From NCBI RefSeq assembly GCF_000003815.2, contig NC_049980.1, positions 3,056,545 to 3,120,544 of the forward strand: 64,000 bases of DNA, read 5' to 3'. The DNA is from Branchiostoma floridae. Lineage: Eukaryota; Chordata; Leptocardii; Amphioxiformes; Branchiostomatidae. Positions within the stretch are counted from its first letter, which is position 1. Every line of letters begins with the position of its first letter. Below, in pieces: positions 6,656-64,000 of the stretch. Made by a program: the position numbers and the translations under genes. The notes beneath the pieces were generated by a model. That model was not told the DNA's origin. It did no database searches and worked only from the letters and a program-made list of their open reading frames with translations.

Positions 6656-7073
6656 AATAGGAATATAACAATTTAACCTCAGATGTTGACCTATTTTTTG
6701 GATGACTCTATTAGTTTGGCTAGCAGCTGTTTGGCAGATGGCTGCACTCGATGACAGCTTTGCCCCAGGTTTATTGTTTTGCCTGCCACAATGTTGTTTA
6801 TTTTCTTGTGGGTAAGAAGGGCTACAAATCTTTCTCCCAGTCTCATTATCAATCATTATGACAGTGACAGCGTTCGGACGTGCTAATTCGCCGCTCCCGA
6901 CAATGTTGTAATCTGTCTTTAATTGAGGTCACACTGGGTCGGATTTTGCTTCCAACGTACTCCTAACGTATCCTGGAACATTTTGGTATATAGTTTTTGA
7001 CATTTGAGCCATTTGTTGGCTACTTTTCGTTGAATCTTCCGTCTATCAACTTGACGGACCCCAAGCGTCCAAG
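6656..7073 (+). other. Probable 5' leader of the CR1-like LINE
   Basis: This non-repetitive stretch runs directly into the first ATG of LINE ORF1. The true 5' end of the element cannot be fixed without a second copy to compare. I see no other feature in it. Confidence 0.4.
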
Positions 7074-12700: not shown

Positions 12701-13342
12701 ACACATCCACTGCAAGCTGACGCATTATCATATCAAAAACATATGCTTAATATATATAGCAACAAGAAAAATCTGTTATCTCATGTGAAAGAAATACTTA
12801 ACAATAGTGGCTTGTCCTTTATTTGGAATAACGACAACACTGACCTCGACAGGCAACATATTTGTACTTTACTTAGAAGAAGGCTATCTGACATGTACAT
12901 TCAAAGTTTTCTCCACAATTTATCTGTTGATACTGGTAAACTAAGATTGTATAAGCATCTCAAATCTGTGTACACTATGGAAAATTATCTACACACCAAA
13001 GACTTTGATGTAAGATCAGCTATATGTAAGCTCAGAGTAAGCGCACATACGTTAGAGGTCGAAAGAGGTAGATACAAACAATTACCTGTTAACGAGAGAA
13101 TATGTAAATATTGTACAGGAAAAGCAGTGGAAGATGAAATGCACTTTATTTGTCATTGTCCTCACTACAGTACCGAAAGAGACAAACTATTTAAACTAAT
13201 TAACAAATTTTTTCCCAGCTTTGCACATCGTAACGAACTACAAAAAACTGCCTTCCTGTTAGCACCACCCAATGCATATGTCTCCCAAAATGTCGGGAAT
13301 TTCATCCTCCACTGTATACAGAAAAGAAATCAAACCCAATAG
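9755..13342 (+). CDS. LINE ORF2 polyprotein: AP endonuclease and reverse transcriptase
   Basis: The second ORF, about 1,195 codons, would nick target DNA and prime reverse transcription there. The apurinic-like endonuclease covers about residues 20-290, with FGFWNVHGLG, VIVGGDLNARVGD, SVVDYILAS and LSDHCKLSL. The reverse transcriptase covers about 560-830, with PIHKGGAKDDANNYRGIS, QAGFRKNFGTNDNIF, FVDFKKAFDCVW, GVRQGCNLSPTLFNLFIND and catalytic LLYADDVVIFS. A C-terminal Cys-His motif reads CKYC then HFICHC near residue 1,116. The only interruption is a 100-base N run at about residues 928-961; the frame stays open on both sides, so the copy may be intact. ATG 9755 uses the last base of ORF1's TGA stop. 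The family is CR1-like; RTE/L2 relatives cannot be excluded. Confidence 0.92.
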   Translation: MCHTHSERNKICRTLSKSHGISFGFWNVHGLGRKVEDSDFISQIEGFDFFSLLETWHAGEKHFPNFLCFSSSRTKTKKAKRSSGGIIFLFKKQYKNYVTKLDSKSEDILWVKVSKELLNMDDDIYLASVYISPNRSTIHSNRTYDIFDVLENEIAYYQNYGEVIVGGDLNARVGDLKDYIPDDGLIDSHTLPDDYNQDHPFPRNNMDTGNPTPFGKNLIDLCINSKLRILNGRTPGDLLGKPTCYQPNGSSVVDYILASETILLQKTTFFHVHPLNILSDHCKLSLILQGSSKTLPEKTSSTLPTRPHCKFVWSTGSKDKFLDVINNNAFYNSINKFIDKNYDLTSASVDSALNDFLAPLQQAGKNSLCLRFTKQGRPSSKNNSKTKKKWFSENCHAARRSLSNLAKLLSKHPRDPFIRGQYFKSKKEYTRLIRRTKADYKNNILHQLNSFSEENPSAFWQLFKQFKTNNTTKSEEPINKEDLHKHFEKLYGKNANNPIHTGNSDLHTQIENSLTELENDLANNNPLDNAIQEQEIRHAISQLKNSKASGSDLILNEMLKCASHALTKPLTKLFNLFISSGYFPKQWCTSHIVPIHKGGAKDDANNYRGISVTSCLAKLFTAILNTRLTNFLDEHALISPNQAGFRKNFGTNDNIFVIDSLVSKYSNDNKRLYACFVDFKKAFDCVWREGLRYKLLISGIGGKFYSLVKSMYSKPQSCIKTSSGLTPPFITDKGVRQGCNLSPTLFNLFINDLVKMLDSPECAPPSLHHLFVSCLLYADDVVIFSETEKGLQCALDKLNTFCMQWKLQVNVKKTKVLIFNKTGRTLKKFKFLLGSETIEIANSYSYLGLQLSPSGSFSLAKKQLALKARKAAFSIKSLIRSQISTKALLRIFDVCIKSIMLYGCEIWRKDYHNANCPIENVHNRFCKNXXXXXXXXXXXXXXXXXXXXXXXXXXXXXXXXXXIDDRGRGRVYWLRLRQLDTNTHPLQADALSYQKHMLNIYSNKKNLLSHVKEILNNSGLSFIWNNDNTDLDRQHICTLLRRRLSDMYIQSFLHNLSVDTGKLRLYKHLKSVYTMENYLHTKDFDVRSAICKLRVSAHTLEVERGRYKQLPVNERICKYCTGKAVEDEMHFICHCPHYSTERDKLFKLINKFFPSFAHRNELQKTAFLLAPPNAYVSQNVGNFILHCIQKRNQTQ
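12540..12639. other. Assembly gap (100 N)
   Basis: Exactly 100 unknown bases inside LINE ORF2. A round 100 suggests a placeholder, so the true length is unknown. Confidence 0.97.
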
Positions 13343-29000: not shown

Positions 29001-32000
29001 CTGTCGACACTAATAAGTTACAAGGTGTACCAAAGTCCACCTTTCATTACACTATAATATTACAATTCGTACCAAGCATTTCCCGAAGATCCCAGCCGTT
29101 TGTGACAAATGTTAAGGATTTCGGATTCCCAACAAGTTAGCAATCTTCTACCTGTTTTCCTTACCTTTGTAAACTGATGGTGATTAAAGGGTATTTGATA
29201 GAAATTTGTCAGTTTTGAGGTATAAAGCCGAAGAAAGGGTGCTGTTAATAGCAAATCATATGAAAATCAGGTAAGGGACATGTTACAACAAAACCCCTCG
29301 GGATAAAGTAGAAACTGCCTTCGTCTGTAGGAAAACAGAATCATTATGTAGGTTGACCAATTATCGTTTTAGATTTCTTGCATTGAAAACAGATGTTGAT
29401 TCCGACCTTTGATACGTTTGCGGTAAAAGGGACGGTTGTTGCATGTTTAAAAGCGAACATCTGAAAAAACAACAACATGTAGCTGCAAACAGAGTAGTAG
29501 GGCATTCGACACGGTAACTGTATAAGGTATATCTGTAATTGCTGTTTTTTTTGGGGGGGGGGGGGCTTGGTGTGGTTCATGGCATCAGAGCGTGGCGTCA
29601 TACGTTGACCAAAAGGAAGCCTTGAAGGTCAGGCACACGTCTTAGAACAGGACATCTTTATTGGTCAAGCAGACTGCATAACGAAATTCTGAGACTTACA
29701 GGTGAAACATCAGCGAAAATTCACCTTGCGCTCTCGCCTTCAACGTGACTTGGCGAGAGTTCACATACAAAAACAACAAGTATTAATTCTTCTCGGTATC
29801 CATTGCGACTGAAATTAGATTACACGGTGTATGCTTTGTTATGTTGAGTATACAAAGTATAACGATTGCTGTGATTTGTCTTCACGCAGCTCTAAGCGGT
29901 CGGTAGTGGTACTGCAGAACGAAGCCCTGTACAGAAACACGTATAGCAGTAGAGATGAAGACGAGGCATGGCGATCCTACTTGGAAAACCCTCTCACAGC
30001 CGCCACCACCGCCATGCTCAACATCAATGGTGACGAAGACAGCGCAGCCGCACTGGGACTGCTCTATGATTACTACAAAGTGAGTGTCCCTACTATCGCA
30101 TCATCCTTCATGGTAACGGATAAACGCTACCCGATGCCATCATTTGGTGTTATTTGACCTTGCTCGTTAAATATTATAGTAAAAAAAGGTTAAGTCACAA
30201 TTGGAAAAGGCACAAATGAACTCTTTCAAAATGGTATACACATGAAGTTATCTGCACCCAAACATAATTCAAAATATTCTAAACCTCTTCTGCCTAAATC
30301 AATGTGACAAGAAACAAAGCAGGGGGGATATCAAATAGGTCACTAGGTAGAGAGAATTGTCAATGGTCAAATAGACATACTTTGGATTGCACTTTTCAGT
30401 CCTCATGAACCATAGGATAATGCATCCAGTCAGGTGGAAATAATGATTACATTTCACCCATACCACGGGTATGGGAGAAATGTATTGTATTCGTAATCTT
30501 GAAATGTTTCTCGTGTTTTGGCTACGAAAACACGGTACCTTGTACCTAGTCCCAACTGGAGGCAAAAACTAGTCTGTATCGGGAAATGTTTTCCTTTACC
30601 ATAGTCAGAAAAATATCACCTAATCGCGAAACATGAACATAATTCTGTTGTCTTTTTAGGATTGTAACCCGTCCTCCATCGCCGCGCCGCTGGGGGTATG
30701 TTTATTTTACATTTTCGGTACAGAGTAGAACCAAAAGCAAAACGCAGAGACTAAACATTGCATTACACCCACCATAAAGCGAGCCATTGCATGTTTACGG
30801 AGCGGCGCGTTGTGCTGATGGGGCCCGAAGGTGCTTGCTACCCTGGTTGGGATGCAGAAAGCTTGTCTTACTGTTAAAGCGGCGGAGGTGGTGGAGGGCG
30901 TGTCCTCGGTACATGATTACCAAATACAGTAACGTTTATAACAGCTTGAGATGAAGATAAATAGTATGATGAGAATGTAAAAAACAACGACCGCTTGATA
31001 ATTGACCTGTTTGCTTCCAGGTGCCAAAGGAGAAGAGAATGAATGCCAACTATGTTACTAGAACACCCATGGGTCCACCGGAAACAGATCAACCAAGGTA
31101 GTGGCCTTTTTTTCGAAATTTGCTTTCTTTCTTTGTAATGTAAGTGTATCACATATTGGTACAAATTAAAATACAACTATCTCATTAACTTGCATGTACA
31201 CGAGTCAAAACGTAAGTTCAACACTCATTTACAAACCATCCTCAGGCATTGGTTAAAGTTTATTTCAGTTCTATCGACAATAAAGTAGAAATGTCCTGTG
31301 TCAAACCGAGAAGCTCCGTCAAGAAAATTTTCTGGCAGCCTCGTTCATCATTGAACTGGGTATGGTAACAGTAAACATGTAGTTCGTAAATCCCTCACAA
31401 CCGTTTTATTCCCCGTCCTCCTAGCAGGGACCTGACGATGTTGCGTAACGTGCCCCTGGCCGACTCCATCACGTCCTCGGGGTTTGACGGTCACCATGCC
31501 CACAGCTCCCCGGTCACCACCCAGCCCCCTGCCGCCTCCCCCCTCACGGTACGGGCTGACCATCACATCCACATCCACAAGCCTGACCACTCGCCCATGA
31601 TTGTAGCCAAACCAGACGAGATGGACAGAACTCCGGACAGTGCCTTCAGCGAGGCTACATTCAAGGACCACCAACAAGAGGTCAGTTATCATAGGATCAA
31701 CTTTCAAGTATGACAGATTAAATATTGGATGTGAGATCACAATCATAAATGTGTACTTCTTGTTCTACTGAAAAGAAAGGGATCAGAAATGGACTTGGAA
31801 TGAAGTTACCAGATGACCAGCTGAAACTATGTTGACATCTTACGTTATATTAGAGTGATTTGATTTTACATTGTACCTGTACACATACTCACAACAAAGC
31901 CCTGCATCTAACTAGGGCAGGCCACTTGGCGGAATCATACATCTGTGATTCTGTGGTAAAAAGGGCTTACAAGGAAGGTGGAACTCTTTCTTTCATTCAC

Positions 32001-35000
32001 TCTGCACATGACCCATTCCCCTCACCTTTACACTTCATCCTACACTTCCGGTAGCATGACGTGCTCGGTGACGACATGTCCGCCTTCCAGGTCTTCAATT
32101 ACAACATCAGCCAGGTCAGCTTGGCTGCTGCGCATGTGCAGAGGCGACAACAACCCGAGTTGTTGCAGCAGGTCATCACAGAGACACAAATCATGCCTCC
32201 TCCGGAGCCTATCAATGGGTAAGTGCCCGGATGTACTCTGTCGGCAACGCGATTGTTAATGGGGCACTCAACAGCGGAAGTAAATGTTCTGGTTCTAGAT
32301 TAGCAATTTGACGTTGGATTTGCACTATGTAGCAAAATACCCTCCAGATAAACCACTGCCAGGTTCTCCAGATAAACCACTGCCAGGTTCAACATATTGC
32401 ATCGCAATCAATCATTGGACAAACACTGTTGATCCTAAGTTTATTTTTGCAACTTATGGTCTTAAAAATGGGGCTTTTTCCATTCTTTGTGTCTAAAATT
32501 GACAGTTTGATGACAGTTTCTCTCTGGCAATCAATATTGAAACTCATACTTAAGATTTGAAAACCGTGGCCTCGGACTATTTGGCAACTTAACACACCGA
32601 TCTGGTTCGGTCTTCTCTCTTCTTGGTTTCAGCTTAAAGTTGATTTAGATCAATAGACTACAAAGAATTTAGAAGCCTTGATACAAGATCTCTTCAAATA
32701 CCCGCTAAGCCTTTGCTGCTTATGATTGCTTCTTTAGACAACATGTCAAACAAACTTACAAAATCATGCTTTTCTCTATTTCCCGACACAGCGTCGCATT
32801 TGAATACATCTTGGAGGCACCAAAGTCTCTCCGCCAGAAACCCGGAGAAGCAAGCATGAGCTACGTGAACAAAGGTAAGCTGTGTTTTTCATCATTTCAA
32901 TTTTGTTTATATAAGTACTAAAGCCATACATGTCAATGTGGAGTGAGCACGAATCAGTAACTTCCGTACATTGAGTTCTGACTTAGCTGCAGTGAGTTAC
33001 TTACGGCCACTTATTTCTGAAGTAGAAAGGTAAAAAAAAACTTGGCGTGCTGCAACGGAACAACCGAGACTTCCACTGGTTCAAGACAAACATTGCTATG
33101 CCAATCCGCAAATGATTAAAACGTTTCGTCCTTGTGATTCCAGGCCAATTCTATGCAGTGACGTTAACAGAAGCAGGGAGTAGTCCATGGCGGCACCACA
33201 GCACTAAAGTCAGAGTGAGTCCATCTTAACAAGTTGCTATGCATTTCCTCTAGAAGCCCAGATACAAACTCTTCGATAATATGTACATGTCAACATGTAT
33301 CAAAGTTAAATTCGAAAAAGTAGCTTAGTTCGAGAAGTTACGGGAACCTGAGGAATAAACCAACGACACTCCCTTTTTATGCAGTCCGTGATTCAAGTAG
33401 TGTTTGGAGACGGTCGCAGTGAGGAAGAACAACTGAAACACTGGCGATACTGGCACGCACGGCAGCACACCGCAAGACAGAGGATCATCGACATGGGTAG
33501 GTGTTCGTCAGTCAGGCTAAACGGAACGCGTTGTCCGTGGCTTTGGCAAATACTCAAAACAGCAGATATCTGTAAATCGCAAAATCAAGTTCATTGGGTA
33601 CGTCAATATCTCTTAGACCGCAAAAGTCTGTGGGAATAAATCACTGTAATCGTCAGTATGATAGAATGATGATCACATCATACTCATTCCCATGCTACGT
33701 TTCCAGCTGACTACAAGGAGAGCACCAACGTGATCGAGAACATTGATGAGATTGCGCACAACGCCATCGCCTTCTCCTGGGACGTGCGGGAGACCGGCAA
33801 GGTCTTCATCAGCGTCAACTGCCTCAGCACAGACTTCTCTTCACAGAAGGGCATTAAGGTAAGCTTCAGCGGCCGACCACAGTTCTGTATATCACTTGTT
33901 CTTCATGCAAATAATCGAGTAATAATTTGTTTGGCTTGCAATTAAGGGCGATGCTTGTCTGTACGGAGAGTATTTCGTTCCACTGATGAGATTTATTTGT
34001 GTCGTCAGGGTCTTCCACTTAATCTGCAGATTGACACCTACACAGACTACTTCAAGGGGGCTACACCTGTTCACAGAGCTTACGTACAGATTAAAGTATT
34101 CTGTGATAAGGTAAGGTGGATTATTGTCGTCGACAGTTGACTTGTAGGAAGACTATCACCCATTGCTTGTAAAACTGCAATGTCATTTCATGAGTTTTCT
34201 TAGTATCACAACTACAGGAATGGTTACTTGTCAAGTCACATGGTAAAATAAGACAAACAAACTAAGGGAGACGTTTTTCTAAGCTGTCAAACCCTCACCG
34301 ATAGCTTTCTATTGCATCTTATTGTAAAGAAAGGATGCAATTTGTCCGTGCAATCAGTTGCAAGAATCATAAGTAATATGTTATCAACCCCCTGATTGCT
34401 GTAACTGTTCAGGGCGCAGAAAGGAAGATCCGCGACGAGGTCCGTAAGATCAGTAAAAAGAAGCAGTCAGAGGAGATCAAGAGCCAGATCCCCAGCCACA
34501 AGCGGAACGAGTTGGCCTACTTCAAACCCATGGCTGACCTGAAGACTCCCCCTGTCCTGTTCGTACCAGACTTCATCCCGGCAGCCAGAGCACCGCCACA
34601 GATAACCCAGGTTAGTAGCATGTGACGAACAGGTTTATCAGCAATATGCGTAAACGGTTTTCAATATCGAACTCCTATCTGTGAACCTCTTCTCCGCGTT
34701 AAGGAAATTTCCTATTTATTCATTTTTCTTCTTTGAATATGTTGTCTGTACTGACAGGTGACGATGTTACTGGCTGCACCTATGAATTTGTCCGTTCTAC
34801 AATGTAACCATGCTATGGACTTCGCCGTGACAGACAGGTCATGACTACCCGTAGTCGAACAAAAAGACATGAACTATCATTCATACCGAGAGCTATGAAG
34901 CTGCTAAATGATACTTAGTATGCTGGAAATTATTCCTATATCTTAACTGCCTGTTGTTCGCTGTTGTCTTTTTAACGATCCATTTTATCTGTAAGTTTTA

Positions 35001-40452: not shown

Positions 40453-41779
40453 GACATTCTGATTGATATGAGGTAATATGTGGCCAAAGTATTTTTTTGG
40501 ACCAGGCGAAAATCAATATGTACGTGAATTTCATCCATAGAATTAAGCAAGTGTGGCCGAAGCACATCAAAGTCTCTCTTCATGCATGTGAGGCTATCAT
40601 ATTCAACATCAACTTTTATTTGTAACAACTTTTAGTGCAGACAATAATCTGTCATACTCTAAAATCACATTTAGCACAGTTCCCAATGTCGACAGAAATT
40701 GGGATGTAGCCAATGCATGTAGCCCTCCATCAGCATGCCTGTACCATTGTCCTGCAGTATTGCAACAGACTGCTAGATGGCATTGCCAGCATATGTTGCT
40801 GTTGTTGACAGTCCATCATCTCAGCAATTGATATAAGCTACATATTATGCACGAATACACTGTAGGTCTGGCTATGCAACCCTTTAAGAGGGTCAATCCT
40901 TTTCCTTATAATCCGCTTCCCCCACAAGGGGAAATGTCTTATTATTAGTGTGCATGACATGTGAAGTCGCCTTTATCTCTGGGGTAACCTATATTCTGCT
41001 GTTTTTTAAAAAACAGGATGTTGGTTCATTTGAAGTCAACAAATGTTGGTTTTAAATTGCAATATTTTCAAAATGCACCATCCATTTACTTAATTGAATG
41101 AATATAGGTTACCCCGTGGATAAAGAGCTATATGAAGCCAAATAGGAAAGGTCAAACTCTTAAGACTGAAATTCCTTTTGACATCACCAGTGCAGACCTC
41201 CCATGAGCATTAGAGCATCAACCAATCAGCCTTTGAGTCATGTTGGAATGTACCACATAAAAAAGAGATTCAGGGGGTTGTTCACAGGAAGTTGTGAAAA
41301 TGGCAGAACTGTAACGTTAGTTGTGTTTACAATACTGGAAGGTTCACAGCTCAACAATGATGGAAAACTACATGTACTAGAGTTGCTGCTAGACTATGAC
41401 CTGCAACACTTTGTTACGTTGTCCCGTTGGTTACTGTGTTGTAACACTTGGTGCAGTATGGCAGAGCATTGAATTCAAAGATGTTGTCATCTTTTGTTGG
41501 GGCTTTGTGACATCTCTGAAAAAAGGCGTAAATGACATGTCAATAATAGCTCCAAGAAAAAGATCTACTATTTTTGAAAAATATTCTACAAGCATTAATG
41601 GGCTCTCTAAGTATAGAAATAGACAGCAATAATTTCATGTTTTCCAATATTAGTGACCCACTAGCCTGTGTTTACACAATCTGTCGCTAGCTGGGGTTAA
41701 TGACCCCTCCCTAGGTGGTGGCACCTGTAGGGCCAACCGCCAGGCTAGGTGTCTCACATACAGTAGTGGACAGTCTTAC
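40453..41779. other. Unassigned interval with a 155-bp hairpin element
   Basis: Inverted arms at 40,971-40,995 and 41,101-41,125 (ggggtaacctatatt and its complement) bound a small MITE-like element. Open minus-strand stretches at 40,630-40,830 and 40,383-40,628 read like protein but contain no motif I recognise and lack clear splice sites. The missing exon or exons of the LIM gene should fall here. Confidence 0.45.
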
Positions 41780-44700
41780 CTGACACACAAAGCAGTCTGG
41801 GTGCCAGGTACTCTCTATGGCCTCTATGAAACCCCCTGTGATGGGGTTGCTGCATGATCGACAGCGAGGCGCATTGTACTGGAAGAAATCCTCCTCACAA
41901 TAAGGCTGTAGTAAGTAAAAAAATTGGACATAGGTGATTAGAAATGTGGACCACACTCACTCATTTCTGCCTGCAACAACTCATGGTCAGTTGTTCTGAA
42001 TTGTGAGGTACAATTCCAGTTACCATGAAGAATACAATAGAAAGAATGGCTATATTCCCCTCATGATACATCTCCATGAGGGAGAAATAATAAGCAATGC
42101 AAGCCAACAAGAAAGGTAACATTTGCAAGAAAATACAGAATGTTACCTTCACATGGTTTAGCCTAGCATTTCTACCTGGAAGGGTAAACTGATTTAGTTG
42201 CAGATGTTGACACAGGATAAGTCAAGGAGGTACAAATGAATTTTGATCTGTAACGTTATGCATCTTGAATAATGAACTCAACGGCCCATATTGTTCCAAA
42301 CAGGGTTTCTCATCATCATCTCATCTCAGTCCCATAGCTACAAGCCACATGCAGGGATAGTCTGTCCACAAGGTTCTCCACTTCTGACGGTCATCATGAT
42401 GATGAGAAACCCTGTTTGGAACTTCCCGTTGAAACCAGAGGGCTGGGAGCTTCAGCCACAAGCCCGTCTGATGTGACTGCCTTTAAATGAAAACTATCTT
42501 CATTATGCAAAATCGTTACAACAAAACTTCAGGCCAGAGCAGGCTTGCACGTGGTCTTAAGCATGCGGCTGCGCCACATGCCTTGCTACAAGGCCACGCT
42601 AATTTGCCCTATATTATGACTATATTTATTTCATAGATTTGGACTTAATAATGTATGTGTGTTGTTGAGGTGATTTAAGCTTTACGTTGATTATGATATT
42701 TGTTCTTGTATTTATGTGTATTATCAATTGATATACAGTCAAACCTGCCCGAGCGACCACCTCTTCTCAGCGACCACCTGGCCATTTCGACCGCTTTTTC
42801 TCGGTCCCGATTTTTTTCCCATTGACTTAAGCATTAAGCGACCTTTTCTCAACGACCACCTGGCCAACGCGACTGCGACCGGCCCAAATTGGGACCCATA
42901 ACGACCGCATCATTTTCAAAATTGAGGTTTTCATCGATTTTTGATGATAACTAGCGCGATTTTGTGCCGAAATCGTTGTAAGAAAATCCGAATTTATAAT
43001 TAGTTGTTAAAGAATTTTTTTAAAAATCTATATCATAATAAAGTGAACGAATGCTGAAACGTATATAGCCTCATACTTTTTTAAGAAAAATCTGTGTAGC
43101 TCATACCTTTTTAAGGAAGATCTGTACGTGTGAGTGCTTTTGTCCAACTGTACTGTATACATTCACCCGTGGGTAAGTACGCTATCGGGACGTACTGGGC
43201 ATCGAATTCGAAAGGTGCACCGTAGTTATTTCAGATCAAGAACATAGCGACGCATAAAGGCTTTTTTGGTAGTTAACTGACAGCATCAAAGTTCCCTTAC
43301 TGTCTAAAACGGTAGTGTACAAATACTTGAGCTTTAAAACACTGCATCGTATAAAAACTCGATAAAAGCTTGGGGTTAAATTTACAATTTACAGTGTGCG
43401 TGTTGTATTTGACATTAAAGACCTCGCTTCTTTGCGTGCGTGCAGTGTGCTTGCTTTTGCTATTAAACACAACGGAAACCATTTATACTTTGCATCAGGC
43501 ATGTTTTCAGTCGATACTCTTCTCAGCGACCACCTGTCCAAATCGACCGCTTTTGTCCGGTCCCCCGGGTGGTCGACTTGGGCAGGTTTGACTGTATCAT
43601 TGTTATGATTTCGGCATGGCGGCTTTGAAAAGGTGTCCTTTGACATCTGTTCCGCCATCCCCTCCATTGTCATTGTATTGTGGATAATCCAAATAAATAA
43701 ATAATTGAAATAAATGGGTCGTCAACAGGGTTTACTCGGCGGCATTTAGCATGCAGAAGGCAGTCGTCTGGGGGAGGTAAGGTAAAAAATTAGCTTGATC
43801 TACCAGCAAAATTTGTCCCTTAAAATCCAAGAAATGGCATTTCAGAGGGTCAAGATTTCAAAATTTTTCTAGACCTCCGCAACGGATCAACCAATGTCAG
43901 AAAATGTGAAAATGCATAAGGGGAGGGGGCAGAGCTTATATGCATCGCCCTTGAAAACCTTTTTCAAAGACAGAAATGTTATTAAACTCTAGATTAGTCT
44001 GCCAGCAAAATTTACCGCTAGGGCCCTCAAAATGTAAGAAATATGGCGTTTCAAGCTCGATGGTAAAGATTGATTTACAGTCAGTTATTACCGCCACAGA
44101 ACCAAGAAAAAGTCCAAAATATACAAATTGAAAATAGTTTCCATCAAGCCGCTCGGGCCAACGAGCTTGCAATGCGTAGCGGGCGGGGCGGGCGCTGCTT
44201 CATAGCGCAAATCTACTAGAAATCCAGCTACAAATGTTTTTTTAGCAAATTTTGACCTGGGTGGAGGATATCTATTCGCAAAAAAAATTGACCCGACCCT
44301 CTGACAGCCGGCCCTCCCCCCTCACTAAATGCCATACGGTCCCTAACTGCCAAATGCAAATTTGTCGTGTTCTCACCTTTTGATCCTTGACTATGTATGT
44401 TCCATTCAGCACCTTTTTACACTGCCAGCACCTGAAGTGGTCTGTGTGCCAGTTACTGCCCAGTGCCTACAATATTCACAACAAGCGAGGATCGATCATA
44501 CACACAGTTGTTGCAGCTAGCCAAAGACTCATGATTGGCCATTCAAAAGTTTTCTCTGTTCTAATTATAATATCGAAAATAATTACCAATCTTACTGCAT
44601 ATATCAGGTACATGTATATTCACAACCAGAGTAGAAGAAAAGGTTATGGTATGCTTGTAGATAACAAAGACTCAACATATGCCTAGCTGTGCCAAAAGTG

Positions 44701-46931
44701 TGCAATATAGAAACAAGTACTGAAATGATTTCAAATGTGACTTGTGTGCTAACCTTGACATAGCCTTCCTTAGGTTTGATGAGTTTGTTACACTCGGCGC
44801 AGATAATGCCAAACCACCTCGCTCGCTCCTCTAAGGTACGAGGTAACACCTGTGGAAGACACTAACTATTATCTTTGTGAGACCAAAGAAGAAGAAAGGG
44901 ATAAAACACGTGAGAGGAAAGGCAAGAAATAAAGGTCTAAGCTGTGGGGTCATCTACATTAGGATTGGATTTTCAGCAGTTCTTCTCCAGTTTCTATGTT
45001 AAAGGATGATTCTAAGCTTTAAAAAGTCTAACCTCTGTGAGTGAAGTCAAGTTGTCAAAACCCTCTAGTTTGAAGCTGCCGACTTCCCTGTGGACATAGG
45101 GGGCTATCTGGTCCTTAGGTAGATCCTGCCATAATGACTCATTGATCAGAATCTAGAAAAAATGTGACAAAGGTCAGAAATCAATCAAAATACAAAGCCC
45201 AATGCTTAAGCTACATGTACTGTAAATGGAGAAATCTTCGCAGCAGTTTTATTATTGTGGTTTTTGTAGTGACTGTTTTATCTCATACTCAAAACCACTG
45301 AGAAAATTTTCATTCTGTCTTCTCCCTACCTTCCCCCTAGTCTCAGCGCTACATGTACATACTATACACCTTTCTCACGCGGCGGCCAAGATAGATCGAA
45401 GAAGAGGTCAATGAGGCAAACAGACAAAACTTATTTCTAAAATCAGGTCCCATTTAGTTTTCCCCCAAACCACACAAATTTTCATGATACAAGATAGAAT
45501 AATAAATATTACAAGAAGTGTTATGCACCGAAAGATGTAGCAATTTAGAGTAGTGTAGACTGACCCCATAGTACTTTAAGAGATGCAAAATAACAACATA
45601 ATAATGCAAATTTTTAACGAATTTGCAGCCATTCACTTATTGGTCGATTTCCTAATTGGCAGGCTACCATTGGTCGAACTGCTAATTATGATGGACAGCC
45701 TTTTGTTTGCCACATTGAACTCGTTTTAGATCTATCATGGCCGCCGCGTGAGAAAGGTGTATACAATATCATGATGTGTTGGTGGTGCCTGTTACAGTGA
45801 TGAAGAGGCACAAATACTTACAAGCACAAATTGAACACAGACCTGATCTTTGAACATTGAAAACACATCTATTTAGAAGTGCTTAGTATCCAGAGAGAGT
45901 GACAGTTGATTACGTATACGCCAGCACTACCTGACTGTTACCTGTACGTCCCTCTGTAGCACCTATGCCCAGTTGCTAGTAGATGGTTTCAGACTGGCTG
46001 GCTGTTAAGCGCCTGTGTTTCCATTACAGTGTAGTATGTGACACTCTACTTTCTCCCACATGCAAAAAAAATCAAACCCCTGCAAACTTAATCATGTATC
46101 TTAATTCCAATTTGTTTGAAGGAATTTCCTGTAAATCAATTATCCCAAAGGCCAATCAGCAGCTATTGCTTGATCTCCAACAAATTCAATTGCTTGTGCA
46201 GTAGAAGATACCTGTCCTCCCTGAGCCAGCCGGCAGATTCCCTGAGTCCTGTACACCTCTGTCCCTCGGTAGCCCATGTGTCCGCTGGCATAGTGGTACA
46301 CACTGTCTACTCTGCCCCTGGATACAACAAAAACAATAAATGTTTGATAAAAGCATGGAAAAACAAATCTTCTTCTTTTATAAGAAATATCCCAACAGAG
46401 AATAGGAACTAACTTACTTGCTAACTCCCATCTGTAATCGTGGCCCACAGAAGATGAGCCGTGGGATGTCGTAGCCGTTCTCACGTGACTTGAAGACTCG
46501 AATACAGTCATCACAGGTTAACAACTCCTCCTCCCACTTAGTGTCTGTCATGGCTAGCTGTACAGTCAAGCACCTGCATTTAACATTATTTGTAGTGATC
46601 AATATTCTCCAGCATACATTCATTTGAAAAAGGAATAAGCAGTGGAATATTGGCCCTTTCAAAGGCCCTGAAAGAAAATGACACAGATGATTGGGAAATG
46701 CATGTTTTTAGGGGCTTTGTAGCAGTTCTAGTCACAGTACTTCTCACACTCACAGTGCTCTGGCAGCCATTAATGCCAAGTGCAGAGTTACAACTACAGA
46801 CTACTAACCAGTTGACAGCATCCAGAGGCTGTTGAAAAGCAATCAAAAAAGACTCTTCCTCAGCCTCTACCTCATAACCACGGAAGTCTCGTGTTGCCCG
46901 CCGTACAATATCACTGTACCTGTTCATAGCC
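41780..46931 (-). CDS. Class III cyclase homology domain (catalytically degenerate) fused to LIM domains; partial
   Basis: Seven exons in transcript order: 46931-46809, 46573-46418, 46317-46212, 45152-45033, 44849-44754, 44466-44377, 41905-41780. All junctions are GT-AG and in phase. The first four encode a cyclase homology domain of the fungal CYR1/trypanosome type: FRGYEVEAEEESFLIAF, LDAVNWCLTVQLAM, LQMGVSKGRVDSVYHY, GICRLAQGGQILINESLW and GSFKLEGFDNL. Positions that carry catalytic Lys, Gly-Asp, Asp, Asn and Arg in active enzymes read Glu, Glu-Glu, Gly, Tyr and Gly, so activity is unlikely. A LIM domain follows (CAEC...WHTDHFRCWQC...PYCEEDF), then the first finger of a second (CRSC...WHPDCFVC). 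Upstream exons, including the first metal-binding Asp, and the end of LIM2 were not found. It is probably a cytosolic scaffold or sensor; function is unknown. Confidence 0.85.
42293..42422. repeat. Hairpin MITE in LIM-gene intron
   Basis: Perfect 27-bp inverted arms at 42,293-42,319 and 42,396-42,422 (gttccaaacagggtttctca and its complement) around a 76-bp centre. Confidence 0.8.
42736..43594. mobile_element. Tc1/mariner-type MITE, family M1, copy 2
   Basis: TA dinucleotides at 42,734-42,735 and 43,595-43,596 flank ends cagtcaaacctgcccg and cgggcaggtttgactg-like complement. The body matches copies at 4,451 and 50,918. It lies in the intron between the last two recognised exons of the LIM-pseudocyclase gene. 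Confidence 0.88.
43700..44340. repeat. Duplicated interspersed repeat, family R2
   Basis: Two partial copies (about 43,790-43,960 and 43,985-44,190) share ccagcaaaatttgtccct-like and atggcatttcagagggtcaa-like segments. The same family recurs at 60,740-61,020. A GC-rich patch, gcgggcggggcgggcgctg, lies at about 44,177. Confidence 0.6.
45363..45763. mobile_element. MITE with 35-bp inverted ends in LIM-gene intron
   Basis: Ends at 45,363-45,397 and 45,729-45,763 are complementary except for one base: cacctttctcacgcggcgg against its complement. About 400 bp, non-coding. Confidence 0.85.
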
Positions 46932-47050
46932 CTACAGAAAAAATGCAGGATAAAAGATTGGTATGAAAGTGATGTTACTGATATGTGCTCACAGCATAAC
47001 AAGACTAGTGTTTATTCTGGTATTCATCCCTTGCAATTGCAAAGTCCTAA

Positions 47051-47240
47051 AGCCCCCTTTACAAATCAAGAATTTAGCTCAGCCGAGTTGTCAGCGAGCT
47101 CTAAATTACGAGGAGGCATGACCCTGATGACGTCGAGGAAACTCTGCCATTTGTTCGTCGGCATCAGGTTCATGCCTCCTCGTAATTTAGAGCTCGCTGA
47201 CAACTCGGCCGAGCTAAATTCCTGATTTGTAAAGGGGGCT
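47051..47240. mobile_element. PIF/Harbinger-like MITE with TAA target duplication
   Basis: Near-perfect inverted arms of about 68 bp start with agccccctttacaaatc and end with gatttgtaaagggggct. TAA occurs on both sides (47,048-47,050 and 47,241-47,243). Three-base TAA/TTA duplications are typical of PIF/Harbinger elements. It lies just upstream of the 5'-most recognised exon of the LIM gene. Confidence 0.85.
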
Positions 47241-47241
47241 T

Positions 47242-47857
47242 AAAGACAGAAGGCTGATAGAGCAGGCTGAAGCTAAAAAAAGATGGACAGCAGGCTACAA
47301 CTGCCCTCTTCATGTACTTCAGGGCCTTTCCCAGCTTTGGCCCCTGGATGACTACCCATCCAAGGATGGTGGCAAGTTTGGAGTCTGACATGTTTTAGGG
47401 CACCCCTACTGCATTTTTTTCACAACAATTCTGTCATACTCACAACATTTCCCAACCAGCACTTACTCACTTACGCATCCTAGTCCCCCAGCCATGCCAA
47501 CTTCTAGCCACAGACTAAAATCTCCCTCCTGACTGATTCTCAACCGATTGCAAACTCTCTCTAGTGCACTTAAATGGGCGAAAACCAGTGATTTCAAAAG
47601 TAGGGGTCCATTTGGTTTTTAAGGAAAAGGATCTAGGCACTGTTGTAGCCAGCATCTGTCATTCTGTCATTGCACATACTTTTACTGCTCGTCAACATTG
47701 ACCAAAGGAAGCGAGATGAATGAATCATAGGTGTCGATGCAACTTGATTGGAAGAGGCATTTAATCCATGTGAGAAAAATTTCAACTTGTAATTTTTATT
47801 AATTGATCACAAACTGTATTTGTTTCTGTGCGGCCCGCTTGCACTTTAACCCTGATC
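47242..47857. other. Spacer upstream of the recognised LIM-gene exons
   Basis: The missing cyclase N-terminal exon would be expected from here on, but no phase-2 exon with an FTD-type metal site was found. A minus-strand frame from 47,391 (MSDSKLATILGWVV) has no donor of the required phase. Confidence 0.45.
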
Positions 47858-48555
47858 ACGTGAGCATGACGTCATTTGAGATTTAGTTGGGAAGCTGGCC
47901 GCACGGTTTTCTTTGCTCTCGTCTTTTCTTAGTTTGTGTTTTCTCGGATGTGCTGATATGGAGTCAGATTTTGCGAGACGTCGAGACGTCGCTGTAATGT
48001 GTGTCGACTCCCGGTGAGAGGCCATACGGCCGCGGGAAGTGCAAGTTTGAGCGACGAGAAGGTTCATCGGATGAAGAATACTTCAAGCAGCAGCGGGACA
48101 GCTCTCACGTTGAGGAGATGTTACGAAGTCTCCGGCAGGACAGCAAAGTTTCCGACCTGGTGCGAGTGGTCTGGTCGGACAGCATCTCTGAAGACACGGA
48201 CGAGACACAGGTGAGACAGTCGAGATCACTCAACTTGAAGAAATCGTCGGGTTACAGCAGGGAGAACGTCAGCACACGGGCTAGAAGTAAACCCCCTGTC
48301 CAGTTTTCCCGCCATCGTGTCCGTAGTAGCAGCAGCGAGGCTGGGGCGAGACCAGACAAGCCTGACATCCGCGATCTCAGAAAGTCTCTGGACAAAGCGC
48401 TGGACGAGTTGTTGAATCCAGATACCAGCCATGGGAAAAAAACAGAAGCAAGCGTTACGAGGATGGCAGCTCCGTTGCAAATTCGTCGCAGTCAGACAGC
48501 ACGGAGTCAGATTACGTGAGAAAACCCAAGAGGCGCCAGCGATGCAGGGGATTTG

Positions 48556-49044
48556 TTTTTTTTTTTTTTTTCTTAGTCAATGGTCACCACGTAACAAGGC
48601 CTGAAGGCCACTCAAGGTTACGGGTTACATGATTGGAACTGTAACAGCAACTCTTCGCCCTAGGTCAGAAACATCATGATTGAGACCAGCCCAATTGCTC
48701 ACTATGAGTGAGGACTAACTGACCCAGTAGGCGAAGCAGGGGTTACGAGGGCTGCTCGGGAGGTTCCCTACCCCTATTTTGGCCGGAATGGTTTGATCCG
48801 CTCGGGTGGATGTTCGCACATGTGGCGGGTTCTTTAACGTGCATAGGGTATGGCTCTCCCCATACACGGGACCTCCATTTAACGTCCTATCCGAGGGACG
48901 ACTCATTTTTCACTTGAGTAAAGTGAGAAAAGTCGTGTAAAGTGCCTTTCCCAAGGGCACAAGACCGGCAACACGGCAGGCGGATTCGAACCGGCGACCT
49001 CTCGGTCACGGGCCGAATACACTACCACTGTGCTACGCGGCCCC
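48556..49044 (-). mobile_element. tRNA-derived SINE inserted in the gag remnant
   Basis: On the minus strand it begins gggccgcgtagcacagtgg and contains a polymerase III box A (tagcacagtgg, 49,035-49,025) and a perfect box B (ggttcgaatcc, 48,992-48,982). A conserved-looking core follows (gacgttaaatggaggtcccg and cacgttaaagaacccgccac), resembling the Deu-type core of vertebrate and amphioxus SINEs. It ends in a 16-base A tract. About 490 bp. No clean target duplication was seen. Confidence 0.88.
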
Positions 49045-49556
49045 ACGCGGATCTCGCAGGAAAAGTGGCAAGATGAAAGGGAAACATGTCTCTTCAAAGT
49101 GTTCTGTGTCACGCCGGCGCCGTGATAGCTATGATTCATACACTTCATCTGGCAGGTCTGATGGCTCCCGCTCACGTTCTACCAAGCGACGTCGACGCCA
49201 GGCAGCTAAGAGCGGTCGGAATCGTACTATCAATGATTCGGGTACTCGTCGTGTCAAAGTTGATTGGCCACAACATAGGGTGTATTTCCCAGGATATGGG
49301 AAGGAAGGGGGCGTGGCTTATGATCAGTTGCCCATGTTTGTACACGGCTTTCTGAAGAATGTTATTTATTCGGAGCGGGTTTCGGTTGACGCAGAGCGTA
49401 AGTTGGTTCATCTGGGAGATCTTATGTTCGATGCCGTAAATTATGACTGGGAGTTGGTTCGGGAGGTCCACGCATCTTTACTGTACGGGATAGAATATGG
49501 ATCGCTCACGTGGGGTAGCCATGGTACCTTTGATGCCATCAGAGAGAGACACTAAA

Positions 49557-50480: not shown

Positions 50481-50917
50481 CTAAAGCTGGTGTCGCACGT
50501 GGCAACGCGTCGTCATCGAGGGCGGCGCCTCTCAGGGGAGCTCGTGTGGCGGGAAGCAGGCCGCAGTATTGTGGCAAGTTTCAGTCCGGTGCCTGTTCCC
50601 CACAATCCGGCCACTGGAGTACACGGTGGGACGCCCCAATTCTACATATCTGCAGTGCGTGCTTGATAGTGCGGGGCAACCAGGAACCACATCCGAGTCA
50701 AGATTATCAGTGCAAACCCCGACCATTTCGCGGCTCGACGGACAGAGCAAACCGCAACTCTGGAGACCCCGCCCACCTCTCCCAGGGAATCGGTCCCGGA
50801 GTCAAGATTTACTTGGGAAGCGGGCGGCACGGTTTCTTTGCTCTCGTCTTTTCCCCAACCACCACCCCCTTTCTCCGCAAAATAGTTTTGGAAGTTAAGT
50901 TAAGGAAGTTGATTATA

Positions 50918-51811
50918 CAGTCAAACCTGCCCGTGCGACCACCTCTTCTCAGCGACCACCTGGCCATTTCAACCGCTTTTTCTCGGTCCCGATTTTTTTT
51001 CCCATTGATGTAAGCATTAAGCAACCTTTTATCAACGACCATCTGGCCAACGCGACCGCGACCGGCCCAAATTGGGACCCATAACGACCGTATCATTTTC
51101 AAAATTGAGGTTTTCATCGATTTTTGATGATAACTAGCGCGACTTTGTGCCGAAATCGGCCAGTTTGCGTCGGATTTTGACTGCCATTACAATGTTATGT
51201 TTAGAATAAAGATGGCGGCGGTCAATGGGTGGGTCAATTGGGCAATCTACTGTAATATAAATCTATATCATTATAAAGTGAACGAATACTAAAACGTATA
51301 TAGCCTCTTTTTCAAGAAAGATCTGTGTAGCTCATACCTTTTTAGGAAAGATCTGTGTGAGTGCTTTTGTCCAACTGTACTGTACATTCACCCGTGGGTA
51401 AGTACGCTATGGGGACGTACCGGGCATCGAGTTTGAAAGGTACACTGTAGTTATTTCAGATACGGCGATCAAGAACACAGCGACGCATAAAGGCTTGTAT
51501 GGTAACTGACAGCATCAAAGTTCCCTTACTGTCTAAAACGTTAGTGTACAAATATTGAGCTTTAAAACACTGTATCGAATAAAAGCTTGGGGTTATATTT
51601 ACAGTATACAGTGTGCGTGTTGTATTTGACATTAAAGACCTCGCTTCTTTGCGTGCGTGCAGTGTGCTTGCTATTTTCCATTAAACACGACGGAAACCAT
51701 TTATACTTTGCATCGGGCATTTTTGAGTCGATACTCTTCTCAGCGAGCACCTGTCCAAATCGACCGCTTTTTCCCGGTCCCCCGGGTGGTCGTCTTGGGC
51801 AGGTTTGACTG
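50918..51811. mobile_element. Tc1/mariner-type MITE, family M1, copy 3
   Basis: Flanked by TA at 50,916-50,917 and 51,812-51,813, with ends cagtcaaacctgcccg and its complement. It carries an extra segment near 51,178-51,250 absent from the other copies, including aagatggcggcggtcaatgg. Non-coding. Confidence 0.88.
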
Positions 51812-52255
51812 TAGTTGTTTATTATGTGCTGTGTTTCCTTGGAAAAGTTTTTGCATGATTAAACCTTTTCCTTTTTTTTTGCCAAAACGTGTCTTTGTTT
51901 GAGTTTGTTTGATAATTATGTTTACTTGACTACAGCTATGATGGAAGAGAGCAAAGAGGATCATGGGATCCCTAACACAGTCAAGGCAGTGACATCACTA
52001 ACTCATTACATAACCCAGTGGCGGCTCATGACAGCCACATATTTAGCCCTTACTGTTATCTATTCCTTGGTTACTGTACAACTGTTACTGTACAACAGTT
52101 ACTGCTGCTCACCTTATGACTGTGTCAGCAGAGTTATTTTCCCATATTGTTGCCACATTTTTCACTTGCACTGCAACAAAGGTCACCACACCATGAGGGG
52201 GAGAAATCTGTCGGGAGACAAAATATACATATATTGCATGTTACATGTACTTTTG

Positions 52256-61660: not shown

Positions 61661-62479
61661 ATAGCTTCTATAAAGCAAATATTTATGCCTCTATGAAGCA
61701 GAGATTTATCCCTCCATTAAGCAGATATCTTAAGCTATTCAGTGTCCCTTCTTACTAGGGGTGAGAGATCTGTTTCGCGATGAAAATCATAAGTATGACG
61801 CAAAGCACATTTCCAAACGGCAGCGCAGTGATTTATTGGCATCTTGAATATGCTTCAAAGTCGATAAGAGGGGGGAGGGCCTAGCAAAAAATTTTGACTT
61901 GGGGGAAAACAAGTGCTTTTAAAAAAAGCTGGCGTTTCGTCTACGTTTATGAGTGTGAACTGTCTTTTTCTTGAAGTAAAATCTGTTAGAAAAAGTCACT
62001 CAAGGGCTGTTGCGTCTATAAGAAAAATTATTATTTTGGAAAGGAGTACTGTTTAATAGCTGGTCTTGGCTTACAACTTTATTTTAAATGTACAATAAGT
62101 TCATTATAAAATCTATCAATATACTCAGGTACTTATGTACACTTGAAAAAGCACCATCAGCACTGTGACAAGATTCTATCTAAATTGACTACCAAATGTC
62201 AAACAAATATCCAAACCAATTAACAGCTACCTCATCTCTATTATACTGGTTTCCGCATTTACAACATTTCTTCCTTGTTTTCCTGGATAATTTTGCTAAT
62301 ATTCATGAAAATTTCCATACTTTTGTGTCGAGCGGTGTGACTTTCCACATCCGTGTTGTCTGAAAACTTCTGAATGAAGTCGATACTGAACAATGAAGCA
62401 TTTGCTACTGTAAGAAAGGATCGCTGTTTTTACCTGCATGTATGCAGGTATGGTTTTGATGCTGGTGGGAACTTTTCGG
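61661..62479. other. Spacer, nothing recognised
   Basis: Starts with three short related segments (gcttctataaagcaaatatt, gcctctatgaagcagagatt, cctccattaagcagatatct), then unique sequence without coding signal. Confidence 0.5.
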
Positions 62480-63095
62480 TAGCCGGGGATGTAGGGCGCT
62501 GTATCTCGTGAACGGATGGTGCGAGCACGACGATTTTTGGTACGTGGGTTGGGGATGGTAGCCTGACACTCAGGTGTGATTTTGGGCCTCCTGGCGCTTG
62601 ACCTTGACATTGAAGGTGGCATTTTTTGTGTTTTGGGGGCACTTTTGGCGCTGTGTGTCCGGAACGATACGCGCGATTGCGACGATTTTTGGTGCATGGG
62701 TGGGGGGTTGTTGCCTGTTGCCTAGGATTGACTTTGGGCCTTGTCGCGTTTGAACTTGACCCGGCAGGTCGAATTTTGTGTCCGGGAGGGGTGTTTCCGG
62801 AGTTATATCTTCTGAACGGCTGGTGCTGGCGCGATGATATTTGGCACATGTGTCGGCGGTGGCTGAATAATGCTCAATTTTGATTTTGGCGCCCTTGGTG
62901 CTTGAACTTGACATTTTAGGTTACCTTTTGTGCGGGCACGGGGCGTGCGCTGTATCTCCGGAACGCAAGGTGCCATTGTGTTGCCATTTGGTACGTGAGT
63001 TGTTTGTGGTGTCCTGGTGGTCAGGTTTGATTTTGGGCCTCCTAGTGCTTGAACTTGATACTGTATAGGTTGACCCTGTTTTAGTGTGGTTGGGG
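62480..63095. repeat. Degenerate tandem repeat, four units of about 150 bp
   Basis: Four successive diverged units begin near 62,490, 62,640, 62,795 and 62,945. Each runs from a gctgtatctccggaacg-like start through a tttggtacgtgggt-like segment, then gattttgggcctcctggcgc, to gcttgaacttgaca. Minus-strand frames across it repeat the same peptide pattern and are artefacts of the repeat. Confidence 0.8.
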
Positions 63096-63350
63096 CATCC
63101 TCCCAATATCTGCTTGGTTTTAAAAACAGATTATGGTTGGGTGTAGAACCATCATCTGGCCTGGGCCACCTTCAATGTATCAGGTTACTTAGTGGCACTG
63201 ACAGTTTGCCAGATGACGGGAGTGTACAAGAATATATATCTGTTGGTCAGGTATAATTGAAGTTTGCTTATTACTCTTTGTGGTGTTTCTAGAGCTGTAT
63301 AGTACTGAGTTTAAAGTTCCGGTACAAGTTCCTTTACCCTGTTGGCAATC

Positions 63351-63434
63351 ATGGTTGAACTTGAACTTAAACAGAAGAAGATGCAATTTTCTAATGTGGA
63401 GGAGAACTGTATAGAGTGTGGGCATAAGAGAAAG
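63351..63434 (+). CDS. Candidate first coding exon, unknown gene, continuing beyond the window
   Basis: ATG at 63,351 opens 28 codons (MVELELKQKKMQFS, then CIECGHKRK) ending exactly at a gtatgt donor, phase 0. The CxxC near the end could start a zinc-binding motif. No following exon was identified before 64,000. A short open stretch with a good donor can arise by chance, so confidence is low. Confidence 0.3.
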
Positions 63435-64000
63435 GTATGTGTATGATTTGTCCTGTGTTTCTTTTTGTTTCTTTGGTAATGCCATTTCCATACTGTATAC
63501 ATGTAATTTGTTGTTTTGGGCTAGTCATATTCGCTTGGTTTTTGGGCCTGCTTAATCTACGGTACAGGCAGGGTTAAGTGGCAGAGGCTTAGCTTTGTTC
63601 TGTTTTAAATTCAGTATCGTTTGTTGCATTTTGTCGCGGCAAATATATGATGAAATTCCCCTTCTAAGCAACTGCTCATTGGTTTGCGGGGATGTTTGCT
63701 GGGTGTTTGCTTTGACTACAACAGCTTCTGAACTTTTCAAAGCTTCCATTGCCAGCAGCTTGCCATCTATAAATGGGATTGACAAGGACATTTTTCATAG
63801 TAAATTATGCTGTTAAATTTGGCTTAGATACTACAGGAGATTTAGGTTTGGGTTGGATGGATTGAATGAAAATATCATACAACCCTGGGGACTAACTGTT
63901 GCTGCTGCATGGGGGCTACCACTATTCATGTTGTCTAATGTCTATGGAACTACTGTACAGATAAAAGTATCATTGGTCAAATTATGCGAGTAACATTCCG
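63435..64000. other. Window end, nothing else recognised
   Basis: AT-rich sequence, possibly the first intron of the candidate gene starting at 63,351. No acceptor with a convincing coding continuation was found. Confidence 0.4.

Follow-up and report, generated by a model that had tools for sequence, protein, structure and literature searches.

A predicted lancelet protein with a CYR1-type cyclase homology domain and a pair of LIM domains

Cyclases known from animals are of the transmembrane, soluble and receptor types. The yeast adenylyl cyclase CYR1 is active and also carries RA and LRR-PP2C parts (PMC12002173), and further members of its branch are found among the receptor cyclases of trypanosomes and the class III cyclases of myxobacteria. 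Here we describe a gene on the minus strand of a 64,000-nucleotide stretch of the lancelet Branchiostoma floridae (hereafter the window; C2:3056545-3120544 in a genome of 513 Mb and 431 contigs). Judged from the genomic sequence, this one gene very probably joins a cyclase homology domain directly to two LIM domains.

The lancelet domain shares with the catalytic domain of CYR1 the GYEV and WCL.VQL motifs and the insert before RMG (31% identity over 178 residues, 86 bits, with a CYR1 sequence not taken from a database record). CYR1 is active, whereas all six catalytic residues are replaced in the lancelet protein, and where CYR1 has its C-terminal CAP-binding place, the lancelet gene has LIM domains and a stop codon. 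The best solved relatives are the trypanosome receptor adenylate cyclases GRESAG 4.1 and 4.3 (E 1.7e-5 and 8e-7), which differ in being active transmembrane receptors and in having an additional delta subdomain of 36 residues (PMC6027212). Myxobacterial class III cyclases (L002-L010, L012) give the highest BLASTP scores and share an EVLP..L..R tail, but they are bacterial, have the catalytic residues (L002 with Glu for the first Asp) and continue with other sequence after the tail. Paxillin carries four LIM domains together with N-terminal LD motifs; the lancelet LIM pair is like those of paxillin-type proteins, but there are two LIM domains behind a cyclase domain and not four. PHLPP2 is an animal pseudophosphatase of a related LRR-PP2C family for which a scaffolding role was proposed (PMC12002173); it keeps the phosphatase part and has no cyclase, whereas the lancelet protein keeps the cyclase part, with no phosphatase seen. 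As judged by titles and the beginnings of abstracts, no protein with both a cyclase homology domain and LIM domains was found among the papers listed in literature searches. The gene may already be annotated, and other animals may have it too. A survey of animal LIM proteins (PMC3305314) mentions 59 unclassified LIM proteins, and its main text contains no word that starts with 'cyclase'.

Gene model and junction exon

Nine minus-strand exons, separated by introns that are all of the GT-AG type, form a single open reading frame of 337 codons and a stop codon, with consistent phases. The first-pass annotation of this DNA had proposed seven minus-strand exons joining in phase. All seven are present with GT-AG borders in one frame and make up the middle of the gene; the proposed ends did not hold, as the gene is longer on both sides (52207-52113 at the 5' end, 41515-41414 at the 3' end). 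The exons are as follows (a slash marks the exon border).

Exon A, 52113..52207, minus strand: start of the cyclase domain (ISPPHGVVTFVAVQVKNVATIWENNSADTVI), missed in the first pass; first metal Asp replaced by Gln; acceptor cccgacag, donor AAG/gtgagc, phase 0 in and phase 2 out, fitting exon B
Exon B, 46809..46931, minus strand: AMNRYSDIVRRATRDFRGYEVEAEEESFLIAFQQPLDAVNW; purine-selecting Lys replaced by Glu, second metal Asp by Glu; 31.7 bits, E 4.4e-8 alone in the 144-kb profile scan described below
Exon C, 46418..46573, minus strand: CLTVQLAMTDTKWEEELL...PRLQMGVSK; carries the insert common to CYR1, GRESAG and myxobacterial cyclases
Exon D, 46212..46317, minus strand: GHMGYRGTEVYRTQGICRLAQGGQ; covers the positions of the missing Asp, Asn and Arg (profile scan, residue alignment)
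Exon E, 45033..45152, minus strand: ILINESLWQDLP...GSFKLEGFDNLTSLTE; final strands of the cyclase domain (profile scan)
Exon F, 44754..44849, minus strand: junction; encodes VLPRTLEER, the tail of the cyclase, and then the first two LIM1 zinc ligands; the tail aligns with EVLPASLSDRRF of Myxococcota
Exon G, 44377..44466, minus strand: middle of LIM1 with four ligands (Pfam LIM, ligand pattern)
Exon H, 41780..41905, minus strand: completes LIM1 and opens LIM2 (Pfam LIM, ligand pattern)
Exon I, 41414..41515, minus strand: end of LIM2 and stop codon, missed in the first pass; acceptor ttttttcag, in phase, ending in NTVTNGTT before the stop

The direct fusion of the two parts, which had already been claimed, is borne out by exon F, since this single exon (44849-44754) carries both the tail of the cyclase and the start of LIM1. 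In the myxobacterial relatives the last strand is followed by a conserved tail, LGxFRLKGIDDxVxLVEVLPxxLxxR. The lancelet counterpart reads VGSFKLEGFDNLTSLTE, is interrupted by the intron between 45033 and 44849, and continues as VLPRTLEER. Among 31,276 stop-free nonamers following an AG (144 kb, both strands, three phases) VLPRTLEER ranks first with a score of 17.3, and the next reaches 12.9; the scoring columns were defined on an alignment that included the lancelet sequence. With tail and LIM1 ligands in one exon and the top score among the nonamers, a junction by chance is unlikely even without transcripts. On the genomic sequence, one might still suspect that two genes were misjoined, one resembling a cyclase and the other encoding the LIM domains. 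Exon F, holding both parts together, and the intron between exons E and F, which is 183 nt long and in phase, speak against such a misjoining, and we regard it as nearly excluded.

The 5' part of the domain was recovered by a scan with a hidden Markov model (HMM) profile of the branch, made from 23 bacterial relatives (23 of 93 pattern matches were confirmed) and a segment of yeast CYR1 that did not come from a database record. The lancelet sequence was not part of this profile, but the search patterns for the relatives derived from an alignment that included it. When 7,443 six-frame open stretches of at least 12 amino acids from 144 kb (the window and the next 80 kb, numbered here as an extension of it) were scanned, the four cyclase exons of the first pass took ranks 1 to 4, on one strand and collinear with the profile. 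Two of them pass the HMMER inclusion threshold individually (E 3.8e-8 and 0.0045) and two fail (0.46 and 2.5). Exon A was the sixth match and covers profile positions 6-30, just ahead of the other cyclase exons. By itself it scores 5.2 bits (E 5.3), and a chance match at 90.5 kb scores 5.3 bits; exon A was accepted because of its collinearity, splice sites and phase and because of the gain for the whole domain. Without exon A the Pfam model Guanylate_cyc gives no match (at E ≤ 1 with the tail, at E ≤ 10 without it), while with exon A the match has an E of 1e-7. For GRESAG4.3 in PDB the E-value falls from 2.8e-4 to 8e-7; the query behind the lower value also includes the tail, but the match stops before it. 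There is some circularity in this gain, as the exon had been picked with a cyclase profile, but splice sites and phase are independent of that choice. A search for a 5' exon by motifs (FTDI, DIxxST and the like) gave nothing suitable, as the lancelet domain no longer has that motif.

An in-between exon with AFERAN (acceptor 46667) is in phase at its start but meets a stop, and the acceptor at 46573 was preferred. A codon-bias exon scan placed three of the nine exons within the top six of 86 and exon A at rank 25; it left five of the nine unlisted and thus says little on missing exons.

The LIM part is well defined. Pfam LIM (PF00412) matches in two stretches with an E of 4.9e-30, both LIM domains (217-268 and 277-328) match the eight-ligand zinc pattern, and the protein ends after them, with the stop codon in exon I. 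The closest solved structures are paxillin LIM domains (E 2.7e-22). Elsewhere in the genome the best match to the LIM part, at 41%, is a gene on C11 that resembles paxillin.

Class, branch and active site of the cyclase domain

Membership in class III had been proposed together with a profile search as its check. This search agrees with the proposal: Pfam PF00211 gives 32.1 bits at a cut-off of 21.9, with residues 4-191 aligned to positions 5-172 of the 183-position model, and the cut-off is not reached without exon A. BLASTP, a tree, an approximately unbiased (AU) test and searches of PDB and of the whole genome with CYR1 all support the further assignment of the first pass to the CYR1/trypanosome branch, and not to the animal-type cyclases. 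In BLASTP with the 209-residue domain, ten myxobacterial-type rows scored 90-102 bits, CYR1 86, L011 79 and a GRESAG4.3 fragment 45, down to 24 for L022 and L023; the myxobacterial scores include the tail, so their order relative to CYR1 decides nothing. Against open frames from six of the lancelet's own cyclase loci, two with the whole domain in one frame and the others as exons only, the best score was 20 bits (E 0.8). The branch profile gave 116.5 bits for the joined protein and 37 and 20 bits for two of the lancelet's own adenylyl-cyclase domains. Its weaker sight of these own cyclases, at 37 bits and less, is expected for one superfamily.

In a maximum-likelihood tree of 29 rows, the lancelet domain falls into a 15-row clade with CYR1, GRESAG, L001, L011 and the ten myxobacterial-type rows (97/97). 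Within it the domain adjoins CYR1 and GRESAG, weakly (78/79) and on a very long branch (2.7). The AU test rejected a grouping with the two own adenylyl-cyclase domains (p 0.018) and did not reject one with CYR1 alone (p 0.39). Animal guanylyl and soluble cyclases were left out of this tree; none of them is among the seven PDB matches at E ≤ 10. As a side observation, cyclases of the branch occur on contigs labelled Klebsiella pneumoniae (metagenome-assembled genome; L001) and Comamonas (L012). L012 stands beside Myxococcus rows in the tree, so that both labels may be wrong.

When yeast CYR1 was searched against the whole genome, exon B was found with an E of 0.0011 and one further place with 0.75, while Pfam finds at least 101 cyclase exon matches in the same genome. 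The gene's own protein of 305 residues, as it stood before exon A, gave 17 matches, which were its eight own exons and nine places in the LIM part; as all nine non-self matches lie in the LIM part, this search revealed no second copy of the cyclase part. A myxobacterial protein had no match in the lancelet genome, this locus included, and is therefore uninformative as a query. An NCBIfam search returned two matches, both far below their own cut-offs, and none of 66 pattern matches on viral contigs was a relative.

The set that marks an active cyclase, two metal-binding Asp, a purine-selecting Lys/Asp pair and an Asn/Arg pair (roles partly from PMC4215837), is not found in the lancelet domain. 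All six positions are replaced in the alignment, in line with the earlier description of the domain as catalytically dead. In the 337-residue numbering the metal Asp residues are Gln14 and Glu58, Lys is Glu54, Asp is Gly140, Asn is Tyr147 and Arg is Gly151. The conserved S and T following the first Asp are replaced as well. The change of Asp58 to Glu alone would be no proof of lost catalysis, but the full set of six points to its loss.

This alignment comprised 23 relatives, namely 21 bacterial rows (L022 and L023 were dropped as outliers), CYR1 and GRESAG. Of 43 columns conserved in at least 85% of these, the lancelet domain keeps 23 and differs in 20 (one an alignment gap). The six catalytic columns are all among the 20 lost (hypergeometric p 0.006). 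What is kept, namely GYEV, F..AF, the Q of WCL.VQ, G...G, Y.G and GGQ.L, is mostly framework. Outside the catalytic set, 14 of 37 near-invariant columns, including the one with the gap, were lost too.

Upstream region and neighbouring features

A candidate first exon lies upstream, outside the window.

Candidate first exon, 92145-91906 in extended numbering (C2:3148450-3148689), minus strand: 80 codons (ACCACCATG), donor AAG/gtaagt

Its donor has phase 0, the phase that exon A (52207) requires. Among minus-strand candidates in the 144 kb its ATG-to-donor score, 23.9, is the highest, and the runner-up (22.6) falls within exon C; four plus-strand candidates score higher. Its addition would give 417 residues, with Guanylate_cyc and LIM both above cut-off in one chain. 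The join to exon A is tentative, because the intron would measure 40 kb and the candidate has no known homology.

No Pfam domain was found in about 39.5 kb of upstream sequence by a scan of the three minus-strand frames (52.2-62 kb and, of each 10 kb from 64 to 94 kb, all but the last 100 bases), which may miss divergent domains. A control scan on the known gene detected the LIM exons but not the divergent cyclase exons, so that divergent RA, LRR or PP2C parts could escape it. Motif searches of the upstream minus strand for LRR, PP2C and kinase parts yielded four LRR-like and two PP2C-like candidates, all with stops inside or close by.

Several other features were observed in the introns of the gene. 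Two plus-strand open frames (47998-48516 and 48941-49552; 173 and 204 aa) lie inside the 5.2-kb intron after exon A; they have no Pfam match at E ≤ 0.1 and are possibly a nested gene or a mobile element. About 110 bases before the acceptor of the exon starting at 46931 there is an inverted repeat (47044-47247) with 98-nt arms, 91% complementary, and an 8-nt loop. An interspersed repeat of about 0.9 kb is present in two introns (42732-43596 and 50914-51813), with blocks 88-98% alike. Further upstream there seem to be two copies of a stretch of about 1.5 kb, with almost identical open frames and some 25 kb between them (62300-63900 and about 87.2-88.6 kb, extended numbering; L034). The next minus-strand gene recognised upstream, at about 129.7-133.6 kb (extended; L038), encodes a sugar kinase of the pfkB family (E 5e-14) that resembles ketohexokinase. 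At about 143.5-144.0 kb (extended), a 183-aa minus-strand frame matches the Pif1 helicase 2B domain (E 2e-8; L039) and is possibly part of a transposon. On the plus strand of the window, two long frames of 915 and 1196 aa with a run of N inside (7008-13339) resemble the two proteins of a non-long-terminal-repeat retrotransposon. Plus-strand frames are also present at 29819-32256; two of them were tested and had no Pfam match at E ≤ 0.01, and the first resembles a grainyhead-like transcription factor.

Proposed role and significance

We consider it rather probable that the lancelet protein is a pseudoenzyme built on a domain of the CYR1/trypanosome/myxobacterial type, which together with a paxillin-like LIM pair would act as a scaffold. 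For the scaffold mechanism taken by itself we see the balance as about even. In this mechanism the cyclase part would still fold, would make no cyclic nucleotide, and would pair with itself or with a partner, while the LIM pair would dock onto adhesion or cytoskeletal partners. The outcome would be a scaffold, probably dimeric, with the cyclase fold as pairing surface. Since catalysis is gone and much of the framework is kept, a pairing surface with LIM docking sites appears the likeliest role, and this suggests the reuse of an ancient enzyme for scaffolding. Trypanosome cyclase domains homodimerise on activation (PMC6027212). Some points weigh against this reading. Dimerisation would be a property carried over from the relatives, the exact position of the domain in the tree is unsure because of the long branch, the CYR1 row was not taken from a database record, and the cyclase fold may have drifted too, as the 14 losses among 37 non-catalytic columns indicate.

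The dead domain might instead pair with a working cyclase as an activator or dominant-negative subunit, with the LIM pair positioning the complex. A trypanosome cyclase in which one metal Asp and the Arg were replaced is indeed dominant-negative (PMC6027212), and the genome is rich in cyclase exons. However, yeast CYR1 finds no second member of the branch in the genome (a weak, exon-wise search) and the own cyclase loci lack BLAST similarity, so that no natural partner from its own branch is evident; we regard this role as unlikely. A little less likely again is decay of the cyclase part, which would then persist as a remnant beside working LIM exons. The very long branch and the non-catalytic losses fit such decay, but its 209 codons are without stop or frameshift, splice sites and phases are intact, and the losses are biased toward the active site. 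In this coding part one would expect 6.6% as many nonsense as missense changes; that no stop has arisen on a branch with 2.7 changes per column thus argues for a maintained protein. Pseudoenzymes often retain ligand binding, and the protein could accordingly be a sensor that binds, but does not convert, a nucleotide or cyclic nucleotide and thereby alters its LIM contacts. The metal-binding, purine-selecting and transition-state residues and the S and T after the first Asp are all replaced, and the absence of all six catalytic residues argues against an ordinary sensor of ATP or GTP, so that we consider a sensor improbable. The choice between a scaffold and a nucleotide sensor, the two roles suggested in the first pass, is an inference.

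Cyr1 is reported to have been lost in metazoa and kept by unicellular holozoans (PMC12002173, 2025). It is possible, although we put this forward tentatively, that a CYR1-type cyclase survived in a chordate, or was regained from a bacterium, as a dead domain rebuilt into a LIM scaffold. Given the reported loss, a surviving relic or a separate gain of Cyr1 in an animal would be notable. New domain pairs are common in lancelets, at more than 10 per million years (PMC4284660), and the pairing alone is therefore less surprising than the branch of the cyclase. If true, a surviving dead domain of the CYR1 type would parallel, on the cyclase side, the loss of phosphatase activity in PHLPP. Such a domain in a chordate would bear on the timing and manner of Cyr1 loss, and the cyclase-LIM protein would show clearly how an enzyme fold can become a module for protein contacts.

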